A DNA stretch of 12,668 nt, from positions 1 to 12,668 of the forward strand of contig JALWEK010000081.1 in assembly GCA_027014185.1 (NCBI GenBank). The letters are read 5' to 3'. Every line of letters starts with the position of its first letter. Positions within the stretch are counted from its first letter, which is position 1. This DNA is from Aquificaceae bacterium. Lineage in GTDB: Bacteria > Aquificota > Aquificia > Aquificales > Aquificaceae. The notes beneath the pieces are model-generated. The model searched no databases, had not been told where the DNA came from, and saw nothing but the letters and a program-made list of their open reading frames with translations. The position numbers and the translations under genes were made by a program. Positions 3,589 through 7,177 of the stretch are shown here, in pieces.

Positions 3589-3981
3589 ATGCTCCGTGTG
3601 AAGACCCACGCCAGGATAGACAAGAGCTTGAGCGGAGAACCCGTAAGCGTAGAGGACGGTTCGGCGACCGTTAGGCTGAAAACGAGCGAGGTCATGGTCG
3701 CGGACGAAAAGGGTCTAGTTCACGGGGGGTTTCTGTTCTCCGCTGCGGATTACGCAGCTATGCTTTCCGTAAATCATCCAAACGTTGTCCTTGCGAAAGC
3801 TGAGGTTAAATTTCTGAAGCCAGTTAAAGTGGGGGATGAGGTCCTTTTCAGAGGGGAGGTAAAGGAAAGGGACGGCAAAAAGCTCAAGGTTCTTGTGGAA
3901 GGGGAGAGGAAAGGAGAGAAGGTCTTTGAGGGAACCTTTCTCTGTGTAGTGCCAGAAAGGCACGTTCTTGAAAGGGGATGA
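3589..3981 (+). CDS. Hotdog-fold thioesterase, PaaI-like
   Basis: 130 residues, the normal size for a single hotdog domain. The central motif VHGGFLFSAADYAA (about 44-57) has the HGG turn at 45-47 and an acidic residue (Asp54) on the following helix, as in PaaI/YbgC-type acyl-CoA thioesterases. The following strands AEVKFLKPVKVGDEV and LFRGEVKERDGKKLKV are the typical antiparallel sheet. The family hydrolyses acyl-CoA or related thioesters in the cytoplasm; the substrate cannot be told from sequence. No Shine-Dalgarno sequence precedes the ATG. With a -10-like TATAAA at 3571-3576 the transcript could start within a few bases of the ATG, that is, be near-leaderless. It ends in an ATGA overlap with the next gene. 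Confidence 0.8.
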   Translation: MLRVKTHARIDKSLSGEPVSVEDGSATVRLKTSEVMVADEKGLVHGGFLFSAADYAAMLSVNHPNVVLAKAEVKFLKPVKVGDEVLFRGEVKERDGKKLKVLVEGERKGEKVFEGTFLCVVPERHVLERG

Positions 3982-4334
3982 GCTGGCAAGAAGAGCTCAA
4001 AAGGCTTCTCGATATACCGCAGGAAGCCAAGATAATTACAAAACCCTACTACAGAACCATACCAAAGAAGAACGGCAAAACCTACAGAGCACTTACGATA
4101 CAGTACATTCACGAAGGCAGGAGGAAGTACAAACATATAAAGAAGGATAAAGAACAGATAGTTAGGAAGGCCCTTTCGAGAGAAGATCTGGCCTACGAGT
4201 ATGCGGCTTCCAAGCTGAGAGATATCAAAGCGTTTCTCGAAAGCTTTTCGGATGAGAGAACGCGTAAGAACCTGTATCCTCTGCTCAAAGAAATAGACAA
4301 GCTCCTTATGAAGATATCCACAAGGATCTTTTAG
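3978..4334 (+). CDS. Small basic protein of unknown function next to the putative origin
   Basis: 118 residues, not recognised with confidence. About 29 Lys/Arg against about 16 Asp/Glu make it strongly basic. Residues about 18-55 (KPYYRTIPKKNGKTYRALT, then IQYIHEGRRKYKHIKKDKE) look like two or three short beta-strands with basic turns. This is loosely similar to small proteins with a YYR..KKNGK..Y pattern that often precede a helical tail. Residues about 56-115 are predicted helical (REDLAYEYAASKLRDIKAFLES; NLYPLLKEIDKLLMKI). There is no signal peptide or membrane segment. The start overlaps the thioesterase stop as ATGA, so translation is probably coupled; the GGGG before the ATG is too close to be a normal SD. 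Its stop is followed directly by the DnaA-box region. Nucleic-acid binding is plausible from charge but unproven. Confidence 0.7.
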   Translation: MSWQEELKRLLDIPQEAKIITKPYYRTIPKKNGKTYRALTIQYIHEGRRKYKHIKKDKEQIVRKALSREDLAYEYAASKLRDIKAFLESFSDERTRKNLYPLLKEIDKLLMKISTRIF

Positions 4335-4380
4335 CTTTTCCCTTCCTAACTCTTTCTCTTTAATCTTATATAGCTGTTCT

Positions 4381-4410
4381 TTTAAAAAGTAAAAATTATT
4401 AATGAATGAG
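4381..4410. other. Candidate DNA unwinding element
   Basis: Only 4 of 30 bases are G or C (TTTAAAAAGT, AAAAATTATT, AATGAATGAG). It lies at the left end of the box-bearing region, 46 bp before the first box-like site at 4457. A second AT-rich patch with alternating TATATATA lies at 4597-4608, inside the left arm, and is a competing candidate. I could not recognise a clean DnaA-trio series beside either. Confidence 0.4.
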
Positions 4411-4443
4411 CTAGCTAAATCCAAAAACACAGTCTTATCAATG

Positions 4444-4739
4444 ACTTACCGACAGACTATCCACATTGTGCTGTAATTGTCCAGAATAATCAATAACTTT
4501 TGAACGTAATATTTGCACATATTTATCAAGAACTTTTAAACTTTCCACATTGCGTACGGATTATACACATATACCAATAACTTATCTCTGTGCAGAATGT
4601 ATATATATGTAAATGACTTATGTTTTTATCCACATTTATCCACATAGTGCTCTGTTTTTATAGCAATATCAAAGGCTTATGCTTGACACGGTTGCATAGT
4701 GCTATAAACAACTTACGAACTTTCCACATCTTCTACACA
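4444..4739 (+). repeat. Left arm of the origin: degenerate repeats carrying forward DnaA boxes
   Basis: Forward boxes or near-boxes occur at 4457 (CTATCCACA), 4541 (CTTTCCACA), 4561 (TTATACACA), 4626 and 4636 (TTATCCACA), 4720 (CTTTCCACA) and 4731 (TTCTACACA). Several are preceded by an ACTTA-like word: ACTTTTAAACTTTCCACAT at 4532-4550 and ACTTACGAACTTTCCACAT at 4711-4729 agree at 16 of 19 positions, and 4616-4635 is a looser copy. ACTTA/ACTTT/GCTTA words at 4496/4532, 4580/4616 and 4675/4711 are each 36 bp apart. CAATAACTT occurs exactly at 4491 and 4575; CATAGTGCT exactly at 4643 and 4695, with CATTGTGCT at 4464. The arm looks like a diverged tandem duplication of a unit about 84-95 bp long. 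Confidence 0.6.
4683..4708 (+). promoter_or_regulatory. Candidate sigma-70 promoter inside the origin, reading toward the sigma-54 activator gene
   Basis: A perfect -35 hexamer TTGACA (4683-4688) is followed after 14 bp by TATAAA (4703-4708), which carries an extended -10 dinucleotide (TGC at 4700-4702). The spacer is short, but the extended -10 could compensate. Transcription from about 4715 would run through the reverse DnaA-box array and give a leader of about 130 nt for the gene starting at 4845. A second, weaker option is the -10-like TAAAAT at 4833-4838, which would make that mRNA nearly leaderless. Confidence 0.4.
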
Positions 4740-4743
4740 GGTC

Positions 4744-4839
4744 TGTGGATAACTGCCACCAGATTGTGGATAATTTGTGGATAGATTGTGGATAAATTGT
4801 GGACAATTTGTGGAAAACTTGTGGATGGATTGTAAAATG
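4744..4839 (-). repeat. Right arm of the origin: helically phased reverse DnaA-box array, 11 bp period
   Basis: As read on the + strand, boxes begin at 4744 (TGTGGATAA), 4765 (TGTGGATAA), 4776 (TGTGGATAG), 4787 (TGTGGATAA), 4798 (TGTGGACAA), 4809 (TGTGGAAAA) and 4820 (TGTGGATGG). From 4765 on, the start-to-start spacing is exactly 11 bp, leaving 2 bp between boxes. The next register at 4831 reads TGTAAAATG, a further decayed copy. All share one orientation. The match to consensus weakens toward the following gene. Same-strand boxes about one helical turn apart fit cooperative filament assembly by DnaA, known from other bacteria. Confidence 0.8.
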
Positions 4840-4844
4840 TAAGT

Positions 4845-6197
4845 ATGTCGGTTAAGGTACTCGTCATAGACGATGAGGAGGGGATAAGGGAATCTCTAAA
4901 GGGGATACTCAGGGAGGAGGGGTACAAGGTAGATACCGCAGCAACCCTTTCTGCGGCTAGAAAAAAGGTGTCTGAAGAGTTCTTTCACGTAGTTGTTCTA
5001 GATGTGTGGATGCCTGATGGGGACGGGATAGAGTTTCTGGATGCTGTCAGGGAGCTTTCTCCTGACTCCGTGGTCGTGGTTATAACTGGGCACGGCAACG
5101 TTGATATGGCCGTAAAGGCTATAAAGAAGGGGGCGTACGACTTCATAGAGAAGCCATTTTCTATGGACAGGTTTCTGTTGACTGTCAAGCACGCAGTGTC
5201 CGAGTCTATGGGAAGGGTTTCTGGCGGAGGGGAGGAGGATGTAGAGCTTATAGGAAACTCTAAACCTATAAGGGAGATAAAGAAGATAGTTTCCAAGATA
5301 GCCAAGAGCAGGGCCCCGGTTTTAATACTGGGAGAGAGCGGAACTGGGAAGGAGCTGGTGGCAAAGCTTATCCATAGAGAGTCTAAGAGAAAAGGGCAGT
5401 TCGTTGATATAAACTGTGCCTCTATACCTAATGACCTGATAGAGTCAGAGCTGTTCGGATACGAGAGGGGAGCTTTCACAGGAGCGGTTAGCAGGAAGAA
5501 GGGGAAGTTCGAGCTCGCAGACGGGGGGACCCTCTTCTTGGACGAGATAGGTGATATGGATACCAGAGCCCAGGCCAAGCTCCTCAGGGTTATAGAAACT
5601 GGCAGCTTTACCAGACTCGGGGGAACCCAGAGGATAGAGGTCGATGTGAGGTTGGTTTCTGCCTCGAACAAGAACCTTACAGAGGAGGTTAAGGAAGGGA
5701 GGTTCAGAGAAGATCTCTATTACAGGATCTCCGTATTCACAATAGAGCTCCCTCCCCTGAGGGAGAGAGGGGAGGATATTATCCTTTTGGCGGAGTACTT
5801 CCTGAAGAAGTTTTCCCAGGAGTACAAGAAAGAGTGTAAGGTCCTCTCGGACGAGGCCAAGGAAGCTCTCATGAATCACACCTGGAAGGGGAACGTGAGG
5901 GAGCTTAAGAATCTTATGGAGAGGGTGGTTATACTCTGTGATGGAGACGTGGTCAGGCCAGAGCATCTTGGACTTGGAAGTTACAGAAGATCGAAAGACT
6001 ACAGTTACATATTCAGACTTGAAAAGCTGAAGGAGGCGAGGAGAGAGTTCGAAAAGGTGTTCATAGAAGAGAAGCTAAAGGAGTACAACTACGATATGAA
6101 GGAGGTTTCCTCAAAGATAGGTACAGACCTTTCAAACCTTTACAGGAAGGTTAAGGCCTACGGGATAAAGATCAAGGACCTGCAAGGTTCGCTATAA
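4845..6197 (+). CDS. Sigma-54-dependent response regulator, NtrC/NtrX type
   Basis: 450 residues in three domains. The receiver (about 1-120) has the acidic pair D9/D10, phosphoacceptor Asp53 (LDVWMPDGDG), Thr81 and Lys103. The AAA+ domain (about 134-370) has Walker A GESGTGKE (163-170), the sigma-54-contacting GAFTGA loop (209-214), Walker B TLFLDEIG (229-236) and the GNVREL sensor II region (349-354). A Fis-type helix-turn-helix follows (about 410-443, with KIGTDLSNLYRKVKAYGI). It would bind an enhancer when phosphorylated and drive sigma-54 polymerase open by ATP hydrolysis. The C-terminal EKVFIEEKLKEYNYDMKEV and SNLYRK words resemble NtrX. The partner kinase is not in the window. No SD precedes the ATG, and the start is only 16 bp beyond the last DnaA-like box. 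Its 3' end overlaps rsmE by 26 bp. Confidence 0.93.
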   Translation: MSVKVLVIDDEEGIRESLKGILREEGYKVDTAATLSAARKKVSEEFFHVVVLDVWMPDGDGIEFLDAVRELSPDSVVVVITGHGNVDMAVKAIKKGAYDFIEKPFSMDRFLLTVKHAVSESMGRVSGGGEEDVELIGNSKPIREIKKIVSKIAKSRAPVLILGESGTGKELVAKLIHRESKRKGQFVDINCASIPNDLIESELFGYERGAFTGAVSRKKGKFELADGGTLFLDEIGDMDTRAQAKLLRVIETGSFTRLGGTQRIEVDVRLVSASNKNLTEEVKEGRFREDLYYRISVFTIELPPLRERGEDIILLAEYFLKKFSQEYKKECKVLSDEAKEALMNHTWKGNVRELKNLMERVVILCDGDVVRPEHLGLGSYRRSKDYSYIFRLEKLKEARREFEKVFIEEKLKEYNYDMKEVSSKIGTDLSNLYRKVKAYGIKIKDLQGSL

Positions 6198-6904: not shown

Positions 6905-7177
6905 TTACTTTATGCTCTCCCTGAGATCCTTGGCCGGCTTGAATGCCACTACCTTCCTTGCGGGGATCTGGATCACCTGTCCGGTCCTGGGGTTCCTTCC
7001 CTTCCTTGCGGCCCTCTTCTTGACGGTAAATATTCCCAGTCCGGGGATGGCTATCCTCTCGCCCTTCTTGAGAGCCTTGGATATAGCTGCGACTGCTGCC
7101 TTGAGAGCGGCATCAGCCTCTTTTTTGGTGATGCCCGCCTGCTTGGCGATCTCTGCAACGAGCTCTGCCTTTGTCAT
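6905..7177 (-). CDS. hup: HU-family histone-like DNA-binding protein
   Basis: 90 residues, the standard length of HU/IHF subunits. The N-terminal dimerisation helices begin MTKAELVAEIAKQAG. They are followed by GIFTVKKRAARKGRNPRTG (about 48-66), the DNA-clasping beta-arm with Pro63 as the intercalating residue, then QIPARKVVAFKPAKDLRESI. It acts as a dimer, bends DNA and compacts the nucleoid; in E. coli HU assists DnaA in opening oriC. Minus-strand GGGAGGG (7185-7191) sits 7 nt before the ATG as a strong ribosome binding site, fitting high expression. It is divergent from ileS and upstream of rsmE. HU is preferred over IHF because no second subunit gene is adjacent and the sequence is HU-like throughout. 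Confidence 0.96.
   Translation of the reverse strand: MTKAELVAEIAKQAGITKKEADAALKAAVAAISKALKKGERIAIPGLGIFTVKKRAARKGRNPRTGQVIQIPARKVVAFKPAKDLRESIK

Follow-up and report, generated by a model that had tools for sequence, protein, structure and literature searches.

A probable chromosomal replication origin, located away from dnaA, in an Aquificota bacterium

Does chromosome replication in this bacterium start in a short AT-rich gap between two genes, which a first-pass annotation took for a probable oriC away from dnaA? The gap lies in contig C81, one of the 233 that make up a draft genome of 1.65 Mb; the whole stretch of 12,668 nucleotides of this contig is called the window here. The annotated surroundings are largely as described: the region lies between a gene for a small protein and a gene for a sigma-54 activator, an HU/IHF-family gene is present nearby, and the flank at 4335-4456 is AT-rich (GC content 29.5%, versus 49.1% for the window; 32% versus 49% for the whole region). 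The Aquificota-like host also fits, as the neighbouring gene finds its two best named relatives in an Aquificaceae and in an Aquificales MAG. The origin-like direction ascribed to the neighbouring genes is not borne out, as they point both ways in the window; in G009, a complete relative (one contig of 1,753,429 bases), forks starting at the array would run in the same direction as 51.8% of 753 called genes, which amounts to no gene-direction bias. The region and its neighbours are located as follows:

4335..4844, no strand: candidate origin region, 510 bases between the 118-aa protein gene and the NtrC-family gene
3978..4334, + strand: gene for a 118-aa protein without Pfam match, left neighbour
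4845..6197, + strand: gene for an NtrC-family response regulator (sigma-54 activator), right neighbour
6905..7177, - strand: gene for an HU/IHF-family DNA-binding protein
4347..4406, no strand: candidate element for DNA unwinding, where the computed duplex stability is lowest in the window

We consider, with a probability of about 0.9, that an Aquificota bacterium has its chromosomal oriC in this region, at a distance from dnaA. The earlier proposal is thus supported, by an excess of DnaA boxes, by conservation and by a strand-asymmetry turning point in relatives. The position away from dnaA is confirmed as well: the dnaA gene of the draft genome is on a different contig, and the distance between array and dnaA in relatives is 765 kb (G009), 725 kb (G082) or 42 kb (G001). 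Among plasmid records, none resembles the region. The 118-aa protein whose gene (3978-4334) adjoins the region has matches in eight of the 17 genomes of the genus.

The DnaA boxes form two arms, the second of which ends in a regular ladder:

4457..4465, + strand: DnaA box CTATCCACA, one mismatch
4541..4549, + strand: near DnaA box CTTTCCACA, two mismatches
4561..4569, + strand: DnaA box TTATACACA, exact TTATNCACA
4589..4597, - strand: near DnaA box TTCTGCACA, one mismatch, against the orientation of the left arm
4626..4634, + strand: DnaA box TTATCCACA, exact
4636..4644, + strand: DnaA box TTATCCACA, exact
4720..4728, + strand: near DnaA box CTTTCCACA, two mismatches
4731..4739, + strand: near DnaA box TTCTACACA, one mismatch
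4744..4752, - strand: DnaA box TTATCCACA, exact
4765..4828, - strand: ladder of six DnaA boxes and near boxes in exact 11-bp steps (4765, 4776, 4787, 4798, 4809, 4820)

The previously reported count of six exact boxes within 4457-4828 is correct: TTATNCACA occurs at 4561, 4626 and 4636 on the + strand and at 4744, 4765 and 4787 on the - strand. The reported number of at least eight near-matches is reached if two mismatches to TTATCCACA are allowed, which adds 4541(+), 4720(+) and 4820(-), among others, but not at one mismatch, where there are six: 4457(+), 4589(-), 4731(+), 4776(-), 4798(-) and 4809(-). The division into a left, + strand cluster and a right, - strand cluster holds overall, with 4589(-) as the exception. 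The clustering in 4335-4844 is statistically significant in shuffle tests. The six exact TTATNCACA compare with a shuffle mean of 0.08 and a maximum of 2, and the 12 boxes at no more than one mismatch with a mean of 1.3 and a maximum of 7; neither number is reached by any of 1000 shuffles. In the whole window, 21 box sites at no more than one mismatch are observed versus 6.0 expected, and 0 of 200 shuffles reach 21. As the steps of the ladder are exactly 11 bp, the DnaA molecules bound to it would line up along almost the same side of the helix. Sixteen bases separate the end of the ladder from the start of the NtrC-family gene.

A second repeat went unnoticed in the first reading, and its modular arrangement is the new part of the present one. 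A 13-mer close to TATCAATAACTTA occurs seven times on the + strand, starting at 4436, 4488, 4524, 4572, 4608, 4667 and 4703. These copies resemble WATCAANNNNTTR, which we take to be the IHF consensus, and are therefore listed as IHF-like sites with their mismatches to it:

4436..4448, + strand: IHF-like site 1 (half module), 0 mismatches to WATCAANNNNTTR
4488..4500, + strand: IHF-like site 2, 1 mismatch
4524..4536, + strand: IHF-like site 3, 36 bp from site 2, 1 mismatch
4572..4584, + strand: IHF-like site 4, 1 mismatch
4608..4620, + strand: IHF-like site 5, 36 bp from site 4, 2 mismatches
4667..4679, + strand: IHF-like site 6, 0 mismatches to WATCAANNNNTTR
4703..4715, + strand: IHF-like site 7, 36 bp from site 6, 1 mismatch

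Three pairs of copies are thus 36 bp apart, and in each pair the second copy precedes a box, the distance from start to start being 17 or 18 bp; for the unpaired first copy (4436), the box comes at 21 bp. The interleaving of the motif with the left boxes therefore has the form of modules: site, 36 bp, site, 17/18 bp, box. With at most two mismatches, TATCAANNACTTA matches eight times in the region (seven times on the + strand and once on the - strand, inside the ladder), versus a shuffle mean of 0.56 with 0 of 1000 shuffles reaching 8; the rest of the window holds two matches at two mismatches and none better. Compared with WATCAANNNNTTR, two of the window's seven sites are exact, four have one mismatch and one has two. 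For the window's region by itself, the fit to this consensus stands out less: the two exact WATCAANNNNTTR in the region are reached by 8 of 1000 shuffles, and the seven WATCAANNNNTTR at no more than one mismatch by 2 of 1000. In ten origins, 29 exact WATCAANNNNTTR are present in 4.7 kb, versus 24 in the 798 kb of G009 that were sampled, three of which fall in the G009 origin. This is a strong enrichment relative to the sampled sequence.

A motif matrix was built from 54 sites of nine origins, leaving out G011, which is near-identical to the window. Its sites were picked by similarity to the consensus (at most three mismatches), which inflates their conservation and admits a few likely chance hits: AA is found at 98-100% and TT at 100%; the motif ends in A or G in 91% of the sites; positions 1, 3 and 10 are T, T and C, each at more than 90% (91% for C at position 10); and position 4 is C in 78%. 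With extra hits at four mismatches in G000 and G010 ignored, the spacing 52-36-48-36-59-36 is common to G000, G009, G011 and G020, G011 being close kin of G000. G022 exhibits 62-36-48-36-59-36, with 62 for 52, or approximately one helical turn longer. This difference of 10 bp in one gap might reflect helical phasing kept by selection. The spacing is partly kept in G008, G010 and G012, and G017 and G062 diverge more. In the alignment, the sequence between the sites is visibly less conserved than the sites themselves.

With regard to proteins that could bind the second motif, the genome encodes three of the HU/IHF family: the one in the window, one beside a gene that is presumably rpsA-like, and one elsewhere. 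The window's protein scores 89.3 bits with the IHF-beta model of NCBIfam (cut-off 115) and 77 with HU-beta (157), which is the highest HU score among the three. For the other two, the best NCBIfam scores are 97.3 bits with IHF-alpha (cut-off 111) and 82 with IHF-beta (115). The best NCBIfam model is thus an IHF model for all three, each below its curated cut-off, and 'IHF-like' is as close a label as these scores warrant, as far as that goes.

The array is conserved in a part of the phylum. A pattern of three boxes in 11-bp steps (at most one mismatch) is present in 37 of 136 phylum genomes and in none with the reversed control, some of the 37 being single one-mismatch hits of doubtful meaning (e.g. 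G028 and G121). A looser three-box pattern matches at least 93 of the 136, with control matches in several. The paired-motif pattern matches 10 of 136 genomes, six of them in the genus, and its control three; it undercounts, because the modules of G008 and G020 escape it, and includes some background. Within the genus, the 11-bp array is found in 11 of 17 genomes. Conservation at the same gene junction, which the first-pass annotation had put forward as a check, holds in part: the array adjoins the NtrC-family gene in nine of the 17, with the 118-aa gene on the opposite side in six of these nine; the other three (G008, G012 and G017) have no match to the 118-aa gene. In G016 and G023, module sites and left boxes follow the 118-aa gene up to the contig end, so that some drafts may lack the array because their contigs end inside the origin modules (L322/G016, L326/G023). 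G014, G018 (99% complete), G019 and G021 have no array, no paired-motif match and no match to the 118-aa gene. G013 and G015 carry arrays elsewhere, namely two oppositely oriented arrays with 11-bp steps around a motif site (L022:100-320, L023:290-520). No NtrC match is found near them, and their neighbours are reading frames that we take to be murD-like and yfiH-like. The origin may have moved or been rebuilt within this genus.

Outside the genus, the array is found in five of seven genomes of genus g2, and in G082 (f2), where its gene neighbours are other than the window's. In G001 of g2, box pairs are approximately 94 bp apart and the gene neighbours also differ, the array lying between what are presumably a rimP/nusA-like pair and a methyltransferase-like gene. 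The motif-like sites of the g2 loci replace the C of WATCAA (position 4) by G or A and form inverted pairs 48 bp apart at three of the five loci; at locus L016, no such sites are found at the stringency used for g2. In genera g3-g10 of the same family, no 11-bp TGTGGA ladder is found, except for a single hit with one mismatch (G028). The origins of these genera may have a different build or other boxes. In G059 of genus g10, neither three-box array pattern, stricter or looser, is matched. Its contig C114 (L185:1-560) exhibits seven exact TATCAATGACTTA plus an eighth in which T replaces G, several of these directly after CTATCACAA, and is possibly the origin of a genus with diverged boxes.

The position of the array on the chromosome was examined through strand asymmetry at fourfold sites, with the coding strand fitted and significance assessed by block shuffles. 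In G009, the fourfold AT two-arm signal has a t of 10.8, and none of 300 block shuffles is as strong (maximum 7.4). The cumulated AT profile is a tent with its peak at the array: the turning point is at 1,675,063 and the array at 1,673,293, 1.8 kb apart, with dnaA at 685,007, 988 kb from the array (765 kb the other way). In G001 (1.195 Mb read) and G082 (400 kb read), the turning point is 2.1 kb and 1.2 kb from the array, respectively, a proximity that is somewhat favoured because these stretches were chosen to include arrays; signals of the same strength are reached by 37 and 17 of 300 shuffles. The AT turning point is thus within approximately 2 kb of the array in all three genomes tried, with a strong signal in G009 and weak ones in G001 and G082.

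As AT alone fixes the axis and not the pole of the origin, the sign was taken from GC3 of G009, for which the best origin is at 1.65 Mb and the cumulative minimum at 1.66 Mb (28 of 300 shuffles are as good). Fourfold GC of G009 gives a best origin at 1.67 Mb (42 of 300), yet its cumulative minimum is at 109 kb. In G001, GC3 has a t of -0.47 at the array, and 8 kb off the cumulative residual peaks instead of reaching a minimum (255 of 300, not significant). In G082, GC3 places the best origin 170-220 kb off, at 1.78-1.83 Mb (5 of 300), in a stretch outside the sampled sequence, with a t of 2.72 at the array; fourfold GC has a t of 0.62 there. The raw cumulative GC skew of G009 was discarded as an origin marker, its best two-arm contrast being equalled in 53 of 200 shuffles. 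The turning point expected at this locus is therefore found for fourfold AT in relatives, whereas GC skew is weak, absent or contrary. A dif-like pattern gave little more than its control, so there is no independent marker for the opposite pole.

These asymmetries bear on the reading of the turning point as the terminus and of the boxes as a terminus-side cluster. AT asymmetry by itself does not separate the poles, and the GC signals are weak, with the opposite sign in G001, though not significantly so. The GC3 sign in G009 (minimum at 1.66 Mb) and at the G082 array (t 2.72) is nevertheless that of an origin, and we know of no dense DnaA-box arrays at termini, so that we regard this reading as highly improbable. 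Equally improbable is that the region regulates the NtrC-family gene, with DnaA sites alongside the regulator's own sites, as might be thought from the ladder stopping 16 bases before the gene. The motif is not palindromic, judging from its sequence, and the box arrays of G001 and G082 adjoin other genes, which suggests that array and turning point go together even without this gene. In addition, the comparison of NtrC upstream regions, which covered L042 and L043 of 80 loci, shows that these two relatives keep the gene (75% and 66% identity) with neither box core nor exact IHF-consensus site in the 500 bp upstream, and we reject the promoter reading on this ground. A locus for titration or inactivation of DnaA, like datA of E. 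coli and not itself an origin, is very unlikely, albeit slightly less so. In it, too, DnaA boxes and IHF-type sites occur together: datA needs DnaA boxes 2, 7 and 3 and an IHF site (PMC5835720). Against this, the array coincides with the AT turning point (a strong signal in G009, a weak one in two other genera), adjoins the least stable DNA of the window, and has far more sites than the five original boxes and one IHF site of datA (PMC5835720).

The identity of the second motif leaves more room for doubt. It could be a low-affinity DnaA site or the site of another origin-binding protein: TTATCAATA matches TTATCCACA at seven of nine letters, position 10 (C, 91%) is conserved although it is free in the IHF consensus, and the g2 variant departs from that consensus. 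However, the conserved CTTA end falls outside the 9-base DnaA box, the strongest positions (AA and TT) coincide with those of WATCAANNNNTTR, and 36 bp is close to one IHF footprint. On balance, we find a motif other than that of IHF unlikely, but worth keeping in mind.

For the origin itself, we tentatively propose, at somewhat less than even odds, that oriC is a chain of IHF-36 bp-IHF-DnaA modules with phasing under selection, in which an IHF-like protein wraps the left arm and presents its phased boxes to a DnaA filament borne by the ladder. IHF covers approximately 35 bp, so that sites 36 bp apart could be occupied side by side. In our main reading of the region as oriC, an IHF-like protein of the HU/IHF family would bend the left arm at each module and gather the left boxes; the paired sites would fold the arm and align its boxes with the ladder. 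A DnaA-ATP filament assembled on the right ladder and the left boxes could then open the AT-rich element on the left (about 4347-4406), and the helicase would be loaded there. The least stable 60-bp stretch of the window starts at 4347 and the least stable 40-bp stretch at 4361, to the left of the first motif site, and AT-rich stretches are visible on the same side in ten relatives; we infer that unwinding occurs at approximately 4347-4406. If the module chain is correct, initiation would need many bends instead of one, perhaps as an adaptation to high temperature. An origin with countable, regularly spaced sites would also be a natural template, from the same phylum, for testing models of DnaA filaments and DNA bending.

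In E. coli, oriC comprises two oppositely oriented halves of DnaA boxes, an IHF site and an AT-rich unwinding element, and is located away from dnaA. The present region exhibits comparable features: opposed box halves, IHF-like sites, an AT-rich element and a location away from dnaA. In contrast to E. coli oriC, it has seven IHF-like sites, six of them paired, instead of one, and a strict ladder of six boxes in 11-bp steps. Bipartite origins of the Helicobacter type have two box clusters, as is the case here, but here no dnaA lies between the clusters and copies of the second motif are interspersed among the boxes of the left one. The region also resembles datA of E. coli, which has DnaA boxes with an IHF site between them (PMC5835720); it differs in being at the AT turning point of its relatives and beside an unstable AT-rich element, and in having many more sites. 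Comparable, too, are the arrays of other Aquificales (g2, for example G001, and f2, for example G082), which share 11-bp TGTGGA arrays of at least three boxes, opposed boxes alongside, motif-like sites and, in G001 and G082, the AT turning point, and which differ in their gene neighbours and, at three of the five g2 loci, in the inverted arrangement of site pairs 48 bp apart.
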